The translations under genes were made by a program, and so were the position numbers. Positions 7,615 through 37,822 of a stretch of DNA of 50,189 bases are shown piece by piece (the first letter of the stretch is position 1; each line of letters starts with the position of its first letter). Under the pieces are notes generated by a model. The model ran no database searches and was not told the origin of the DNA. It was given only the letters and a program-made list of their open reading frames with translations. Source of the DNA: Alloalcanivorax xenomutans (GTDB lineage: Bacteria; Pseudomonadota; Gammaproteobacteria; Pseudomonadales; Alcanivoracaceae). The DNA lies in contig NZ_OBMO01000027.1 in NCBI RefSeq assembly GCF_900217905.1, positions 1-50,189 of the forward strand, given 5' to 3'.

Positions 7615-8763
7615 ATGAAGCCCATCGTAGTGATCGGATCCGGTCTGGCCGGATTCAACGTGGTCAAGGAATTCCGCAAGCTGGATAAGGAAACGCCGCT
7701 GGTGGTGCTGACCGCCGACGACGGCCGCAGTTACTCCAAGCCGATGCTGTCCACCGGTTTCACCAAGGAAAAAACCGCCGATGAACTGGCCATGGCCTCA
7801 CCGGAACAGGTGGCCGAGCAGTTCAACGTCACGGTGCGGACCCACGTTCATGTGGCCGGTATCGATGCCGACGGGCACCGGGTGCTGCTGCCGGACGATC
7901 ACCTGGATTACAGCAAACTGGTGCTGGCGCTGGGGGCGGATACCTGGACGCCGCCGTTGGAAGGTGACGCGGTGGGCGAGGTGTTCTCGGTCAATGACCT
8001 GATGGACTACGGCCGCTTCCGCGAAGCCCTGCAAGGCAAGCGCCGCGTGACGATTCTCGGTGGTGGTCTGATCGGCTGTGAATTCGCCAACGATCTGAGC
8101 AACGGCGGCTTTGAAGTGGCCCTGGTGGAACCGATGGGGCGCTGCCTGCCACTGTTGTTGCCGCCGGCGGCTTCCGAGGCGGTGGGCCGGGGACTTGAGG
8201 CCCTGGGCGTGCGTTTCCATTTCGGTCCCCTGGCACAGGCGGTACACCACGGTGATGATGGCACTCTGATTACCGAACTGTCCGATGGTACCCGGGTGGA
8301 ATCCGACGTGGTGCTGTCCGCCATCGGCTTGCGTCCGCGCATCGACATGGCCAAGGAAGCCGGTCTGCGCACCAACCGGGGCATCCTCACCGATCGCACC
8401 CTGCGCACCAGCGCCGAGGACATCTACGCCCTGGGCGATTGCGCGGAAGTGGAAGGCCATGTTCTGCCCTATGTGCTGCCGCTGATGGCCAGCGCCCGCG
8501 CCCTGGCCAAAACCCTGGCAGGCGAGGAGACCGCGGTGAGTTACGGCGTCATGCCGGTGACCATCAAGACTCCGGCTTGCCCGGTGGTGGTCTGCCCGCC
8601 GCCGGCGGATAGTGAAGGCGAGTGGGAAGTGACGCAGCAGGAAAATGATGTCACCGCCCTGTTCCGCGGCGCCGACGGCACACTGCTGGGCTACGCCCTC
8701 ACCGGTGAGGCGGTGAAGGAAAAGCTCAAACTCAACAAGGAACTGCCGGCCCTGATGCCCTGA
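7615..8763 (+). CDS. rubB: Rubredoxin-NAD(+) reductase (RubB/AlkT-like)
   Basis: The 382-residue flavoprotein has an N-terminal FAD-binding Rossmann motif (IGSGLAGFNVVKEF, from residue 7), a second dinucleotide motif for NAD(P)H (LGGGLIGCEFA, near 147), and the FAD-contacting YALGDCAEVEG near residue 272. This is the layout of class-I pyridine nucleotide-disulfide reductases that reduce rubredoxin. It passes NADH electrons to the adjacent RubA for alkane hydroxylation. The gap to rubA contains a short direct repeat of CCCTGGCACCA. The start ATG at 7615 has AAGGAG upstream. Confidence 0.93.
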   Translation: MKPIVVIGSGLAGFNVVKEFRKLDKETPLVVLTADDGRSYSKPMLSTGFTKEKTADELAMASPEQVAEQFNVTVRTHVHVAGIDADGHRVLLPDDHLDYSKLVLALGADTWTPPLEGDAVGEVFSVNDLMDYGRFREALQGKRRVTILGGGLIGCEFANDLSNGGFEVALVEPMGRCLPLLLPPAASEAVGRGLEALGVRFHFGPLAQAVHHGDDGTLITELSDGTRVESDVVLSAIGLRPRIDMAKEAGLRTNRGILTDRTLRTSAEDIYALGDCAEVEGHVLPYVLPLMASARALAKTLAGEETAVSYGVMPVTIKTPACPVVVCPPPADSEGEWEVTQQENDVTALFRGADGTLLGYALTGEAVKEKLKLNKELPALMP

Positions 8764-29750: not shown

Positions 29751-29897
29751 CCGCCGCCATAGGGGCTTGGAAGGCGGCGCCTGCTCGGCGTCATCCCTCA
29801 ATTGAACACTGTCCGAAACATCTTGTTAATGAACACCGTTTAATAAATCGGTCGTCCTGTGCCTAAATTAAACAACGTTCAAATAAGGGGAATGACA

Positions 29898-31964
29898 ATG
29901 ACACTCACAGGACGAACCTTCGGACATTGGTTGCTGGGACTGGCCTTGGTGATAGGAACGAAGATCGCGGCGGCGGCCGGGTTGATGACCCCGGCGGACG
30001 GCAGTGAGCCGCCGCTGAGCATCCGCGAGCAGCATGTCACCGTGGATGTGGAGGACGGTTACGCGGTCACCGAGGTGGAACAAGTGTTCCACAACCCCCA
30101 CGACCGCGATTTCGAGGCCTGGTACAGCTTCCCGGTACCGCGCCAGGCGGCGGTGGCGGAGTTCACGGTGTGGATCGACGGCAAACCGGTCACCGGCGAG
30201 GTGCTGGAGAAACAAAAAGCCCGCGAGGTCTACGAGCAGGAGAAAGCCGCGGGCCGGGACGCCGGTCTGATGGAAAAGGACGATTACCGCACCTTCGATG
30301 TCTTCGTCAGCCCGGTACGGGCGGGCCAGGACACCCGGGTGCGGCTGGTGTATCTGCAACCGGCTTTTGTCGATACCGGCATCGGCCGTTATGTCTATCC
30401 TCTGGAAGAGGGCGGTGTGGATGAAGAGCGCCTGTCGTTCTGGACCGCCAACGACAAAGTGGAGCAGCACTTCACCTTCACCATGAACCTGCGCACCGGC
30501 TATCCGGTGGAGGCGGTGCGTCTGCCCAAGCACCCGCAGGCCCGGGTCAAACAGCTGGGACCACAACAATGGCAAGTGACGCTGGACAGCCGTGCCGGGG
30601 CCACCGAAGAGACGGAAGAGGGCGCGGTGCCCGCTGGTGAAGGCGAGGACCCGGCGTCGCCGGCGGCGGCCTTCCGGCTTGACCAGGATGTGGTGGTGTA
30701 CTGGCGGCATGCGGCGGATCTGCCGGGCAGTGTGGACCTCGTGGCTTATCGTGCCGCCGGCGCCTCCCGCGGGACCTTCATGCTGAGCCTGACCCCGGGG
30801 GACGATCTGCAGCCGATCACCACCGGCAGCGACTGGGTATTCGTGTTGGATATCTCCGGGTCCATGCAGGGCAAGCTGGCGACGCTGGCCGAAGGAGTCA
30901 GCCAGGCGTTGGGTAAACTGCGCCCCGGTGACCGTTTCCGTATCGTTCTGTTTGATGACCATGCCAGCGAGCTGACCAATGGCTATGTGGTGGTGAACCC
31001 GGAGAACGTGCGTCATTACGTGAAGCGGGTTCAGGCCCTGGGCCCCCAGGGCGGCACCAATCTGTTCGATGGTCTGAAATTGGCGCTGCGGCCTCTGGAC
31101 GCGGACCGGCCCACCGGCATCGTGCTGGTGACCGATGGCGTCGCCAACGTCGGTGTCACCGATCAGAAGAAATTCCTCGAACTGCTCGAGACCCATGACA
31201 TCCGCTTGTTCACCTTCGTCATGGGCAACAGCGCCAACCGGCCGATGCTGACCGCGCTCACCGACGCCAGCAAGGGCTTCGCGGTAAACGTCTCCAACAG
31301 CGATGACATTGTCGGGCAGATTCTGCTGGCCACCAGCAAGGTCACCCACCAGGCCATGAACAATGTGAAAGTGGAGATCGACGGCGTGAAAACCGCCGAT
31401 GTGACTCCCGAACGTCTGGGCACCGTATACCGGGGCCGCCAGATGGTGCTGATGGGGCACTATTGGGGCCAGGGCCCGGCGGAGGTGACGCTTACCGCCG
31501 AGGTCGGCGGCGAGAAACGCCGCTACAGAACCCGCTTCGAATTCCCCGCCAGCGGAGGCGACAACCCGGAGCTGGAGCGGCTGTGGGCCTATGCCACCAT
31601 CGAGGGGATGCAGCGGGAGCTGAATAATTTCGGTGACAACGCGGACCTTCGTAACGGCATCATCGATCTCGGTCTGGAGTACGGCCTGGTCACCAACCAC
31701 ACCTCCATGGTGGTGCTGCGGGAGGAGATGTTCCAGCAGTACGGCATCGACCGCGATAACGCCAAACGCCGCGATATCGAACGTCTGGCCAAGGCTCAGC
31801 GCGAGCAGGTGACGCCGGTTTCCAATCGGGTTGATGGTTCGCAGCCGATGTTCAAGGGGCATCGCCCTTCCACGGGCGGCGGCGGTGGCGGTGCGTTCGG
31901 ACCGCTGGCCTGGTTGCCGTTCCTGATTCTGCTGCTGGGTGGATGGTGGCGGCAGCGCCGCTGA
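29898..31964 (+). CDS. Exported VIT/VWA domain protein with GlyGly-CTERM-like tail
   Basis: The 688-residue protein has a signal peptide (FGHWLLGLALVIGTKIAAAA), a VIT domain (about 30-150, with VEQVFHNPHDRDFEAWYSFPVPRQAAVAEF), and a VWA domain whose MIDAS motif DISGS starts at D318 and continues with VLVTDGVANVG. The C-terminus is tripartite: GGGGGGAFGP, a hydrophobic helix, then WWRQRR, like the GlyGly-CTERM signal processed by rhombosortase. It resembles marine proteobacterial sortase-target VIT-VWA proteins, likely surface or envelope attached. The ATG at 29898 is chosen for its spacing from AAGGGG; ATG 29892 is an alternative. Confidence 0.88.
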   Translation: MTLTGRTFGHWLLGLALVIGTKIAAAAGLMTPADGSEPPLSIREQHVTVDVEDGYAVTEVEQVFHNPHDRDFEAWYSFPVPRQAAVAEFTVWIDGKPVTGEVLEKQKAREVYEQEKAAGRDAGLMEKDDYRTFDVFVSPVRAGQDTRVRLVYLQPAFVDTGIGRYVYPLEEGGVDEERLSFWTANDKVEQHFTFTMNLRTGYPVEAVRLPKHPQARVKQLGPQQWQVTLDSRAGATEETEEGAVPAGEGEDPASPAAAFRLDQDVVVYWRHAADLPGSVDLVAYRAAGASRGTFMLSLTPGDDLQPITTGSDWVFVLDISGSMQGKLATLAEGVSQALGKLRPGDRFRIVLFDDHASELTNGYVVVNPENVRHYVKRVQALGPQGGTNLFDGLKLALRPLDADRPTGIVLVTDGVANVGVTDQKKFLELLETHDIRLFTFVMGNSANRPMLTALTDASKGFAVNVSNSDDIVGQILLATSKVTHQAMNNVKVEIDGVKTADVTPERLGTVYRGRQMVLMGHYWGQGPAEVTLTAEVGGEKRRYRTRFEFPASGGDNPELERLWAYATIEGMQRELNNFGDNADLRNGIIDLGLEYGLVTNHTSMVVLREEMFQQYGIDRDNAKRRDIERLAKAQREQVTPVSNRVDGSQPMFKGHRPSTGGGGGGAFGPLAWLPFLILLLGGWWRQRR

Positions 31965-34438: not shown

Positions 34439-35056
34439 ATGAAAGTGTGGGGCCGCAAGGATTCCACCAACGTGAAAAAGGTGCTGTGGTGCGCCGATGA
34501 GCTGGGGCTGGATGTGGAGCATCAGCCGCTTGGTGGCCGTTACGGCGGGCTGGATGAGCCGGTATATCGGGAAATGAATCCGAACGGCCTGATTCCCTGC
34601 CTGCAGGATGGCGACCTGGTGTTGTGGGAATCCAATGCCATCGTTCGTTATCTCGGCGCTCAGTACGGCGCCGGCCGGGTGTACGCCTCGGATCCGAAAC
34701 GCCGGGCCGGCGCGGACAAATGGATGGATTGGGCTTCCACCACCCTGGTGGGTGCCTACAAGGACTGGTTCATCAACCGGGTACGCCGAACCGCGGAGAC
34801 TCGCGATTCGGCGGCCATGGAACGGGGACTGCGGTTTTTACGCGAGCAACTGGCGGTGGCGGACCAGGCTCTGGCCAGCCAGCCCTACCTGTCCGGTGAT
34901 GACTTTGGCATGGGCGATATCCCGCTGGGCTGCCTGAGCTATCCGTGGTTTGAGCTGGATGACCAGCGCCCGGATCTGCCTCATCTGGAAGCCTGGTATC
35001 ACCGTCTGGCCGAGCGCCCCGCTTATCGACACCGGGTGATGATAGAGATCACCTGA
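34439..35056 (+). CDS. Glutathione S-transferase family protein
   Basis: The 205-residue protein has the thioredoxin-like N-domain (MKVWGRKDSTNVKKVLWCADELGL, NPNGLIPCLQDGDLVLWESNAIVRYLG) and the helical C-domain (ending RPDLPHLEAWYHRLAERPAY). The cis-Pro (IPCL) and the ES pair that holds glutathione are present. The substrate is unknown. The ATG at 34439 follows GGAGAAGAGCG. A strong terminator-like hairpin lies 66 bases after the stop. Confidence 0.9.
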   Translation: MKVWGRKDSTNVKKVLWCADELGLDVEHQPLGGRYGGLDEPVYREMNPNGLIPCLQDGDLVLWESNAIVRYLGAQYGAGRVYASDPKRRAGADKWMDWASTTLVGAYKDWFINRVRRTAETRDSAAMERGLRFLREQLAVADQALASQPYLSGDDFGMGDIPLGCLSYPWFELDDQRPDLPHLEAWYHRLAERPAYRHRVMIEIT

Positions 35057-35121
35057 TTCCCTTCCTGTCCTGTCGGCCCGCTCTGGCTGACAAGCGATCC
35101 TTGCTGGAACAGAAACAGGTT

Positions 35122-35160
35122 CGGCGCGCCGGTCAGGGCGCGCCAATCTTGTTGTTTTTT
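35122..35160 (+). terminator. Terminator after the GST gene
   Basis: GGCGCGCC (35123-35130) and GGCGCGCC (35137-35144) are self-complementary arms around a short loop, followed by AATCTTGTTGTTTTTT. Stem and T-tract fit an intrinsic terminator. Confidence 0.7.
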
Positions 35161-35421
35161 GCTCAATCCTGTTACGCGGTTCTCCTGATAGATGAGATAA
35201 AAGTCACAATTCGGTTACAGCCGCTGACAACGGAAACCGCGGAGTTACCTGAGCACGCGCCGTTAACATGACGTAAATCACATTCTACATTTTTTCATAG
35301 CCACCCTTTGTACATTCGTTCATTCGAGGTTCATCGGTTTTCAGGGGGACGGGGAGCTCAACCCTGGTCACTGGATGACCTGAATTTTTCGAACAATGGT
35401 TACTCAATGAGGGTGGAAGCG
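35161..35421 (+). other. Long AT-rich leader of the repeat lipoprotein gene
   Basis: With the preceding terminator, 365 bases separate the GST and lipoprotein genes. This part is lower in GC than its surroundings and has stretches such as GATGAGATAAAAGTCACAAT and ACATTTTTTCATAG that suit a promoter, but I find no convincing -35/-10 pair. An open frame from 35308 runs into the lipoprotein but has no signal-peptide character. A long untranslated leader is likely. Confidence 0.4.
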
Positions 35422-37320
35422 ATGATTACGTCCATGGCAAGAGGCCTGCTACTGTGCTTGATGGTGGTCGCCCTGGCCGCCTGTGGTGGCAGTGGCGGTG
35501 GTGGTGGCGGCGGTACGCCGAACGATCCGAACAACCCGGGAACCCCGAATAACCCGGACAACCCCGATAACCCGGACAATCCGGATGACCCTGATAACCC
35601 GGACAATCCCGATGATCCGGATGATCCCGACAACCCTGATAACCCCGACGATCCCGACGAGCCGACTCCTGAAGAAGAAGCGGAGTTGTTGACGCTGATC
35701 GATAGCAACAACCATTTCACCGCTTCTGTTTGTCCTGGTGCTCTGATCGACTCCAATCTGGGCGATGCGATTGATGTTCTGACTTGTCAGAATGAAGCGC
35801 TTGAAAACATTTCCCTGAGCAACGACAACTTGCTGGGCCTGTTGTGTGCCAACGCGGTAGCGGACACCGAGTCCGGTCTGCTGGGTAGCGCCACCAATCC
35901 AGACTTCCTGCAAGCCTGTGTATTGGAAAGCGGCACTTACCTGAAGAACACCATCACTGGCTTGCTGGACGGTACCAGCCCGGTGACCCAGGCACTGTGT
36001 CCGGCTAACTCCCAGGACGCGGACGGCAACCCGGTGACCTGTCTGGTCGAGGTGCTGCAGTCCACTCCGGATACCATCCAGGGCGTGGTCGGCCTGCTGG
36101 GCTGCGAAGACATGATGAACCCGCAGACCTGCCTGACCGGCGTGGCCAACAACCTGGCCAGTGGCGAACTGCTGCTGGGCACCGTGAACACCGTTTCCAT
36201 GGCGTTGTGCCCGGTGGCCACCAATGCGTCCGAGTTCAACCCGCAAGCGTGTCTTACCGAAGTGCTGGGCGCGGTAACCACCGTGGTTGGCCTGGGTGGC
36301 AACTGTGAAGATGGCGAGAACCAACTGACTTGTCTACTGGATATCGGCGAAGGCCTGGGCCCGATCGCCGATGCCGTTGGCGGCATTCCGGTTCTGGGCG
36401 ATCTGCTGGGCGGTCTGCTGGAAGGCGGCCTGCCGCTTCCGGGCGACGGCTCCGATCCGCTCACCAGCCTGCTGGAAAACCTGGGCATGCTGGGTGATCT
36501 GACCGGCGAGATTCCGGTTCTGGGTGATATCATTGGCGGTATCCTCAACGGCGATATCGGTGGTGACGGCGGCCTGCCGCTGGATCTGGAAGGTCTGCTG
36601 GGTGGTCTGAGCGGTGGCGATCTGGAAGCCGTGACCGGCCTGCTGGATCAAGTACCGGTGCTGGGCGACGTGCTGGAGCAAGTACTGGGCGCGCTGACCT
36701 GCGAATCCGGTAATCCGCTGTCTTGCCTGGCCGGTGCCGGCGACCAGCTGTCCGGTCTGACCGGTCTGCTGGGTGAGATTCCGGTGCTGGGTGACGTACT
36801 CGATCCCCTTCTGGCCACCTTGCTCGGCCTGGCCGACGGTGGCTTGGGTGGTGGTGACGGCAACCCGCTGGATATGCTCACCGGCGCTCTGGATCAGATC
36901 CCGGTACTGGGTGATCTGTTGAACCAGATACTGGGTACTTTGGGTGGTGGTCTGCCTGGCGGTGACGGCGGTTTCGAGCCTGATCTGTCCTTGCTGGAGA
37001 ATATTCCGGTGCTGGGCGATCTGCTGACCGGCCTGCTGGGCGGCGCGCTGGGCGGTGACCTGGATCTGGACGGCCTGCTTGGTGGTGTCCTCGACGGCCC
37101 TGTCGGTGACGGCGGTGCCCTGGTTCCGACCGTGGGTGACCTGCTGGAGCAAATCCCGGCCCTGGGTGATCCGCTGGCCGGTCTGCTGGAAACCCTGACC
37201 GGTAACGATGAGAGCCTGCTGAAGCAGCTGTTGAGCCCGATTGAGGACGCCCTGCAGGACGTTCCTGTTCTGGGTGACCTGCTGAGCAGCCTGCTGGACC
37301 TGCTGTTCGGCTGGACCTGA
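35422..37320 (+). CDS. Repeat lipoprotein with Pro-Asp-Asn linker and PVLGD repeats
   Basis: The 632-residue protein begins MITSMARGLLLCLMVVALAACG, a lipoprotein signal with lipobox LAAC (C21). Residues 22-85 are a Gly run and a Pro-Asp-Asn linker. Residues 95-320 carry about twelve Cys in paired contexts (for example CEDMMNPQTCL and CEDGENQLTCL), suggesting disulfides. Residues 320-632 hold eight copies of an IPVLGDLL motif at irregular spacing of 35-50 residues, each followed by Leu/Gly-rich amphipathic stretches. I know no family for it. It is likely an outer-membrane surface protein. ATG 35422 has GGTGGA upstream; 35407 is an alternative. A strong terminator follows. Confidence 0.8.
   Translation: MITSMARGLLLCLMVVALAACGGSGGGGGGGTPNDPNNPGTPNNPDNPDNPDNPDDPDNPDNPDDPDDPDNPDNPDDPDEPTPEEEAELLTLIDSNNHFTASVCPGALIDSNLGDAIDVLTCQNEALENISLSNDNLLGLLCANAVADTESGLLGSATNPDFLQACVLESGTYLKNTITGLLDGTSPVTQALCPANSQDADGNPVTCLVEVLQSTPDTIQGVVGLLGCEDMMNPQTCLTGVANNLASGELLLGTVNTVSMALCPVATNASEFNPQACLTEVLGAVTTVVGLGGNCEDGENQLTCLLDIGEGLGPIADAVGGIPVLGDLLGGLLEGGLPLPGDGSDPLTSLLENLGMLGDLTGEIPVLGDIIGGILNGDIGGDGGLPLDLEGLLGGLSGGDLEAVTGLLDQVPVLGDVLEQVLGALTCESGNPLSCLAGAGDQLSGLTGLLGEIPVLGDVLDPLLATLLGLADGGLGGGDGNPLDMLTGALDQIPVLGDLLNQILGTLGGGLPGGDGGFEPDLSLLENIPVLGDLLTGLLGGALGGDLDLDGLLGGVLDGPVGDGGALVPTVGDLLEQIPALGDPLAGLLETLTGNDESLLKQLLSPIEDALQDVPVLGDLLSSLLDLLFGWT
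35517..35664 (+). repeat. Coding tandem repeat: Pro-Asp-Asn linker
   Basis: About 49 codons are built from variants of AACCCGGACAATCCGGATGA, encoding alternating NPDN, NPDD and DPDD units. The near-identical 9- and 12-base units are prone to slippage, so linker length may vary between strains without a frameshift, because units are multiples of three. Confidence 0.8.
36381..37305 (+). repeat. Eight PVLGD protein repeats
   Basis: The motif (I/V)P(V/A)LGD starts at codons 36385, 36511, 36652, 36778, 36898, 37003, 37153 and 37261. Flanking residues vary (GG, GE, DQ, GE, DQ, EN, EQ, QD before; LLGGLL, IIGGIL, VLEQVL and so on after). DNA copies differ at third positions, so the array is old and kept by selection rather than by recent duplication. 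Confidence 0.85.
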
Positions 37321-37344
37321 TACCCAGTCGATTCGCAACGAAGC

Positions 37345-37386
37345 AAAAAACGCCCCGGGAAGCGATTCCCGGGGCGTTTTCTTTTG
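37345..37386 (+). terminator. Strong intrinsic terminator
   Basis: CGCCCCGGGAA (37351-37361) and TTCCCGGGGCG (37366-37376) form an 11-bp stem with a four-base loop, preceded by AAAAAA and followed by TTTTCTTTT. It works in both directions and ends the lipoprotein transcript. Confidence 0.9.
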
Positions 37387-37440
37387 GGGCAACGAGGCAA
37401 GGCACATCGCGGTGTTGTCCCGCCATTATGGAACGGCAAG

Positions 37441-37478
37441 ATTCCCACGGAAGGGACTACGAAGCTCCCACAGCCGCT
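37441..37478. repeat. Short REP-like repeat
   Basis: ATTCCCACGGAAGGGACTACGAAGCTCCCACAGC carries the CTACGAAGC and GCTCCCACAG modules of the family. It lies just past the stop of the minus-strand DUF3301 gene. Confidence 0.55.
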
Positions 37479-37480
37479 CT

Positions 37481-37822
37481 CTAGTGCAGGCGCTGATCTT
37501 CCGGACTGAAGCGATGCGGCGGCAGGGTGATGCTGAGCACCCTTGGCCCCAGCATGCGGGTCTCGCCCTGGTAACGTTCGCCACCGGTGACGGTGAACTC
37601 GAAGCTGTAGCAGCGCAGCAGGCAAAGCCCTCGGCCCGGATCGCGGCGTACCCGCACACGGCGCAGCGCCACGGTTTCGTCCAGCAACATCACGTCTTCT
37701 CTCTGGCAATACCGGCGTGTGGCCAGCAGGGCGCTTTCGCGAATCTTCTGGGCGCGCCAGAACAGGGCCGCGGCGATACACAAGGCGCTGAGCAAAAGCA
37801 GGTCCGTGAGTTGCAGATTCAT
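37481..37822 (-). CDS. DUF3301 family protein
   Basis: The 113-residue protein has one N-terminal membrane helix (LTDLLLLSALCIAAALFW) and a cytoplasmic domain with the family pattern RESALLATRRYCQREDVMLLDETVALRRVRVRRD and a beta-rich YSFEFTVTGGERYQGETRM. DUF3301 proteins occur widely in gammaproteobacteria with no known role. The ATG at 37822 begins the helix; upstream in-frame codons back to 37912 cover the divergent promoter. It is divergent from a small acidic protein gene. Confidence 0.82.
   Translation of the reverse strand: MNLQLTDLLLLSALCIAAALFWRAQKIRESALLATRRYCQREDVMLLDETVALRRVRVRRDPGRGLCLLRCYSFEFTVTGGERYQGETRMLGPRVLSITLPPHRFSPEDQRLH

Follow-up and report, generated by a model that had tools for sequence, protein, structure and literature searches.

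The window, i.e. the whole stretch of 50,189 nucleotides analysed here, encodes on its plus strand (35422..37320) a lipoprotein of 632 residues that belongs to a lineage-specific family of repeat lipoproteins; the architecture of this family is well supported by comparison of its members, and we found no description of it. The gene was delimited from the list of open reading frames and its translation, and it is supported by dN/dS values relative to three relatives. In literature searches, no description of the window protein was apparent among the matches listed.

The protein begins with a signal peptide that ends in the lipobox LAAC (residues 18-21; 35422..35484, plus strand), and acylation is predicted at Cys21. 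A Gly run separates the lipobox from a Pro/Asp/Asn stalk, which was delimited by sequence and composition (residues 32-83; 35515..35670, plus strand); residues 22-85 consist of 28% P, 27% D and 19% N. The stalk is followed by Cys modules related to those of long Cys-only paralogues (residues 104-304; 35731..36333, plus strand), which contain 12 Cys residues, and an additional Cys pair is present at positions 427 and 435. The C-terminal half is Leu/Gly-rich and bears eight (I/V)P(V/A)LGD motifs at positions 322, 364, 411, 453, 493, 528, 578 and 614, i.e. seven strict [IV]PVLGD motifs and one IPALGD. By comparison, shuffling residues 320-632 10,000 times gave at most one strict motif per shuffle. 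The lipobox, the stalk, the Cys region and the eight motifs listed in a preliminary description of this DNA were all confirmed in the open reading frame, and the spacing of 35-50 residues reported there agrees with the measured motif-to-motif distances of 42, 47, 42, 40, 35, 50 and 36 residues. The sequence contains no long Gly-X-Y runs, and no collagen model was among the Pfam matches.

Outer-membrane lipoproteins lack Asp at position +2 according to the Lol sorting rule, and the lipobox of the window protein is followed at +2 by Gly and not by Asp. We infer that the gene product is a real exported, lipid-anchored lipoprotein that would be acylated and sorted to the outer membrane. The start codon at 35422 is preferred over the in-frame start at 35407 because AGGGTGGA, which is invariant across nine aligned leaders, precedes 35422. 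A lipobox, a Gly run and a stalk-like start are common to many other lipoproteins of the genomes searched.

The dN/dS of the window gene was 0.064 relative to A. balearicus L061, 0.104 relative to L003 and 0.195 relative to Alcanivorax sp. 24 L062; therefore, it is a working gene under purifying selection. The Cys region and the repeats are under similar constraint, and the stalk is looser relative to L061 (dN/dS 0.5, six changes). The low complexity of the protein and the antisense frames that overlap the gene are features also to be expected of a spurious or decaying low-complexity frame; however, such a frame is scarcely credible given dN/dS values far below 1, the conservation of a leader box and Shine-Dalgarno sequence, and full-length open frames in 17 named loci.

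These 17 loci, which carry the names Alloalcanivorax or Alcanivorax, and the window protein make up 18 full-length members; because of the locus names, we take the bacterial family to be Alcanivoracaceae. All 18 members have a lipobox, and in all 18 the number of Cys residues in the mature protein is even (14 in fourteen members; 16, 22, 24 and 26 in the others), the 18 parities not being independent observations because the members are related. PVLGD-type motifs are present in 17 of the 18 members in differing numbers; L076 has lost all of them. Lys and Arg together account for 0.1-1.6% of the residues across the 18 members. In the mature window protein, this fraction is 0.3%, Asp and Glu make up 16%, and beyond residue 21 there are two Lys, no Arg and one His. 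For comparison, the median Lys+Arg content was 10.7% in 46 open reading frames of at least 150 residues, which include the lipoprotein frame and were picked mechanically in the window and are surely not all of its genes.

A repeat model built from 18 units of L074, L075 and L077 detected eight copies in the window protein, all with i-E values of at most 2.6e-4, and three further matches below threshold. All copies lie on the plus strand, i.e. repeat 1 at residues 303-340 (36328..36441; i-E 3.4e-8), repeat 2 at residues 342-384 (36445..36573; 2.2e-7), repeat 3 at residues 401-424 (36622..36693; 2.7e-6), repeat 4 at residues 427-477 (36700..36852; 9.8e-11), which spans the whole model and includes Cys427 and Cys435, repeat 5 at residues 483-517 (36868..36972; 5.6e-8), repeat 6 at residues 523-543 (36988..37050; 2.6e-5), repeat 7 at residues 571-591 with the IPALGD motif (37132..37194; 2.6e-4), and repeat 8 at residues 598-625 (37213..37296; 5.3e-8). 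In the genus g3 relatives inspected for this unit (L015-L018, L020, L022 and L023), it spans about 60 residues, in which a Cys pair (CDPxDPxSCL-like) is followed by a stretch resembling a helix, the IPVLGD motif, another stretch and a linker rich in Gly and Pro; some units of L020 and L022 are without the Cys pair. As read from the sequences, the Cys region and the PVLGD domain are one repeat in the relatives rather than unrelated parts, and the window protein keeps eight degenerate copies of it. Thus, both parts of the preliminary description are present in the window protein, but their separateness does not extend to the relatives, in which they are combined in one unit. The preliminary description mentions neither this unity nor the scarcity of Lys and Arg, the long paralogues and the leader box described below.

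When 128 units of 17 members were averaged, which were picked by the motif so that the motif positions are conserved by construction, the mean profile was hydrophobic at positions -10, -7, -4, -3, 0, 2, 3, 6, 7, 10 and 11; its best periodicities are 105 and 90 degrees, and it is amphipathic, with leucines forming a wide face. In the window protein, the amphipathicity of helix 2 exceeded that of shuffles of its own residues in seven of eight units (p<0.03; p 0.27 in the remaining one), but for helix 1 it did so at p<0.01 in just three of eight units, with p>0.1 in five. The amphipathic character originally ascribed to the repeats is thus supported for the repeats taken together. AlphaFold was run on residues 86-632 with 18 alignment rows (mean pLDDT 38.8) and on two modules with 33 alignment rows (mean pLDDT 57.1). 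Both models, which are of low confidence, are made up of helices interrupted at the IP of the motif or close to it. The structure prediction called for earlier thus lends weak support to helical content, but neither model is reliable enough to establish hairpins or a partner surface.

Comparison of the window protein with Pfam, NCBIfam, PHROGs and PDB sequences gave nothing credible past the lipobox and stalk, and a plasmid search with the protein gave no match. These searches with the window protein, and family scans of the members, bear out the earlier statement that the architecture fits no known family; similarly, the profile search proposed at the time found the repeat unit, but no characterised domain family covering the protein. 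DUF4112 (PF13430) was considered and rejected for the window protein, which matched it with an E-value of just 4.2, short of the curated cut-off. It was matched at E<=1 by five of 14 members scanned (best 1e-4) and, among five relatives scanned with scores, by four with 16.2-22.7 bits against a cut-off of 23.3. In some relatives, about 20 residues around IPVLGD match positions 27-47 of the profile; however, the match covers a fifth of the profile and is below the cut-off in the four members scored, and we read the resemblance as a shared local motif.

A weak match to NF058595, the lipo-invert putative C-terminal anchoring domain, occurred in 13 of 14 members; however, the best E-value was 0.0049, and in the window protein the match covers residues 8-43, i.e. 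the signal peptide and the Gly run, with 11.9 bits against 37, so that membership, which would call for a C-terminal match above the cut-off, was rejected. Fusolisin (27.8 bits against a cut-off of 999; window residues 9-57 only) and the IgA-binding protein BAC (15.9 bits against 1700; residues 32-83 only) were rejected as well. The cricket paralysis virus VP4 model was touched by three of 14 members scanned. One of these, L015, scored 23.5 bits where the cut-off is 22.6, its best stretch being 17 residues long; in a protein this repetitive, we regard the match as fortuitous. The top PDB sequence match of the family profile was the designed antiparallel coiled coil 8qad (E 2.6e-6). The Leu-rich helical spacing of the family profile is shared with 8qad and 9r1o, but these coiled coils are artificial and the likeness is one of pattern and not of descent.

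Outside the PVLGD-bearing proteins, a close likeness is to long Cys-only lipoproteins of the same bacterial family, of which there was no description among the matches listed in the literature searches. The six inspected (L115, L116, L117, L120, L121 and L122) have open frames of 781-1186 residues (in three cases no start codon was identified) and share with the window protein the lipobox, the Cys modules, an even number of Cys residues after the lipobox and a low count of Lys and Arg (3-5 in all); they differ in having 0-1 PVLG-type motifs. Of their 31-51 Cys residues, 30-50 are left once the lipobox Cys is subtracted.

In the bacterial family, a profile of the Cys modules matched 37 of 46 genomes in three of eight genera. 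By our own tally, 22 of these 37 genomes matched at E<=1e-89, of which all but three (G1118, G1124 and G1127) were also inspected for PVLGD motifs; three more (G014, G025 and G028) proved on inspection to have PVLGD proteins, G033 has a PVLGD-free variant, and 11 have long-type matches only. With the G011 long paralogue as query, matches were obtained in G005 and G011 and none in the window genome, G006, G007 and G008. The broader surveys were samples, with no more than three candidates scored for each genome, so that weak or single relatives may be missed. At the order level, 30 of 390 genomes matched, 16 of them within the bacterial family; of the 14 outside, 13 matched only in profile positions 1-89, i.e. 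the lipobox and stalk. The remaining one, L048 (G134) from another family of the order, is a lipoprotein of 370 residues whose end bears two PVLG motifs and a Leu/Gly tail, and may be a distant relative or a case of convergence. The only match among 369 genomes at the class level was the window genome itself, and the three among 398 at the phylum level were the window genome, G003 and G134. In total, the sampled genomes outside the bacterial family contained nothing beyond lipobox/stalk matches and one short PVLG-tailed protein, and in the cross-genus comparison suggested in the preliminary description the protein has so far been seen only in marine relatives of Alcanivorax. In G1120, a second, PVLGD-free relative of 599 residues and of the L019/L076 type (L118) is present in addition to the PVLGD-type L119.

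In the reading that we favour, with a probability of about 0.4, the window protein is a surface-facing outer-membrane contact protein. Signal peptidase II processing and Lol sorting, with Gly at +2, would anchor the protein in the outer membrane by acylated Cys21, and the mature part would face outwards on the flexible acidic Pro/Asp/Asn stalk. The stalk would bear a disulfide-stapled Cys-module domain and eight degenerate helix-IPVLGD-helix hairpins with Gly-rich linkers between them. The broad leucine face of each short helix could pack against adjacent hairpins or against a hydrophobic partner outside, and the resulting acidic contact coat might help the cell to attach to other cells, to matrix or to hydrophobic surfaces. 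The sequence itself supports the reading frame, the selection, the repeat unit, the Cys parity, the depletion of Lys and Arg, the average amphipathicity and the distribution, whereas disulfide pairing, hairpin geometry, acylation, sorting to the outer membrane, orientation and the contact function are inferred. Oleosins, apolipoproteins, phasins and BslA have amphipathic surfaces that adsorb to hydrophobic interfaces and may serve as a working analogy only. The loss of every PVLGD motif in L076 counts against a contact protein. Moreover, a periplasm-facing lipoprotein would give an identical sequence picture, which counts against the outward orientation. Disulfides form in the periplasm, and no sequence feature separates the window protein from a surface-exposed lipoprotein, both of which speak for an envelope spacer or scaffold facing the periplasm; however, the acidic low-complexity stalk, the drift in motif number and the scarcity of Lys and Arg seem, as a general impression, likelier in exposed proteins, and we regard such a scaffold as distinctly improbable. 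Self-assembly into a surface matrix or fibre, with helices packing between molecules, would fit the Gly-rich linkers, the variable number of motifs among members and the 8qad match; however, that match may reflect Leu-rich composition, and we give this alternative a small chance.

Specific binding of oil droplets or alkane surfaces for hydrocarbon uptake, in the manner of oleosins or apolipoproteins, would make use of the wide leucine faces in the mean profile. As a proxy for alkane hydroxylase, we used the pattern NYxEHYGL, which we take to be the AlkB motif. It is present in 45 of the 46 family genomes, i.e. in 36 of the 37 with the protein or a Cys-module relative, as expected for oil binding, but also in all nine without a Cys-module match; the sole genome without the exact motif, G1122, carries a long-type match. 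Across the order, 141 of 390 genomes carry the motif, i.e. all 18 genomes of the family and 123 of the 372 others, and for the genomes outside the family only lipobox/stalk matches and the short G134 protein were obtained. Because the AlkB motif is common without the protein, inside as well as outside the family, the protein marks a clade and not the presence of alkane hydroxylase. The link to oil drawn at the outset is thus not supported: the distribution counts against an oil role, although one within the clade is conceivable. A NorW-like flavoprotein of the rubredoxin-reductase kind is encoded 27 kb upstream (7615-8760; 335 bits against a cut-off of 392). It is perhaps a rubredoxin reductase; rubredoxin reductases of this kind serve alkane hydroxylases, and its position speaks for oil binding. 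However, the window contains no AlkB motif and no alkane gene was among the scanned neighbours, and together with the clade-marker pattern this makes specific oil binding unlikely.

The lipoprotein gene is preceded by an intergenic leader of 365 bases with one promoter-like site, TTAACA-17-TACATT (35263..35291, plus strand), which is near chance level, i.e. 0.7 such sites were expected by chance in the 3.5 kb scanned; its TAACA...ACAT is kept across the aligned Alloalcanivorax-type leaders. A leader box of 31 bases (35287..35317, plus strand) has 27 columns that do not vary among nine aligned leaders; it includes CCACCCT (35301-35307), which is complementary to the Shine-Dalgarno sequence AGGGTGG (35410..35416, plus strand) that is invariant in the same nine leaders. 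In these Alloalcanivorax-type leaders, the distance between the box and the Shine-Dalgarno sequence is 52-96 bases and the intervening sequence varies. Among the 17 named loci, the exact 17-base core of the box is present in seven (L061-L067), has one change in L068 and is missing from L069-L077. In L068, the box reads CCATCCT, and G-U pairing with the Shine-Dalgarno sequence is still possible; no double change was observed. A 25-base core with at most three mismatches was found once each in G000, G006, G002 and G001, ahead of the lipoprotein gene, whereas G010 and G005, whose matches are of the long type only, lack it; with one site per genome in four of six genomes searched, no regulon was seen.

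The predicted probability of pairing between the box and the Shine-Dalgarno sequence was at least 0.83 in seven of ten leaders, 0.25-0.81 in L066, 0.32-0.48 in L064 and 0.07-0.10 in L067. Occlusion of the Shine-Dalgarno sequence was above that of shuffled leaders in all ten (0.005-0.035 of the shuffles reached it), but an occlusion of 0.75-0.79 is already seen with shuffled leaders, and among the ten leaders the four closest are near-identical. The fold stability of the window leader is ordinary (z -1.1; 31 of 200 shuffles as good), and an Rfam search of 34900-37700 gave no gathering-score match. In total, the box in Alloalcanivorax is predicted to mask the Shine-Dalgarno sequence and is a candidate cis-regulatory RNA; it may also act at the DNA level, beside the promoter-like site.

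The scarcity of Lys and Arg bears on how such proteins are detected. The computed tryptic pieces of the window protein are 155, 426 and 31 residues long, and because Lys and Arg are so scarce, standard trypsin-based surveys would largely miss it. For the orthologue L062, from a strain named Alcanivorax sp. 24, the computed pieces are of 63, 95, 33, 421 and 14 residues, so that it is not wholly invisible to trypsin. The exoproteome of Alcanivorax sp. 24 is reported to comprise 1250 proteins after trypsin digestion (PMC7187450), and tryptic search settings were used for an Alcanivorax proteome (PMC12128166). Plastic colonisation by Alcanivorax was tied to flagella in a study whose main text mentions neither lipoprotein nor adhesin nor surface protein (PMC12046545). 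Blooms of Alcanivorax and related bacteria occur in oil spills, and these bacteria are counted among the early colonisers of plastic in the sea. A conserved candidate surface protein that is nearly unseen by trypsin proteomics is a concrete gap, and the module family is a natural case of long exported proteins nearly without Lys and Arg. Should the contact function fail, it would still represent a new family of orphan repeats whose general reach is limited. A bolder picture, which we consider rather doubtful, is that clade-specific lipoproteins almost free of Lys and Arg, in which a disulfide-stapled helix module is mixed with an IPVLGD hairpin module, coat these marine bacteria with a layer that is interface-active or assembles itself; that they were overlooked because tryptic digestion yields pieces as long as 155 and 426 residues; and that in Alloalcanivorax they are switched on via a leader with a 5' end that masks the ribosome-binding site.

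An intrinsic terminator with a 15-bp stem and a T-run (37347..37385, no strand assigned; -35.5 kcal/mol, z -5.2) lies between the lipoprotein gene and the convergent DUF3301 gene, and a broad terminator scan gave just its minus-strand form. The strong terminator noted previously was thereby confirmed, and the gene has its own leader, as stated there. An operon with the GST/MscS or DUF3301/ABC genes is unlikely because these neighbours vary among relatives, in a comparison in which the picking of open reading frames was crude. The nine neighbouring proteins scanned had no known adhesion or surface-export role, which counts against the contact reading. A VIT/VWA protein encoded at 29859-31961 scored 212 bits to TIGR03788 (marine sortase target) and was rejected as a sortase target against the cut-off of 552; it recurs near the lipoprotein gene in nine of 18 neighbourhoods.
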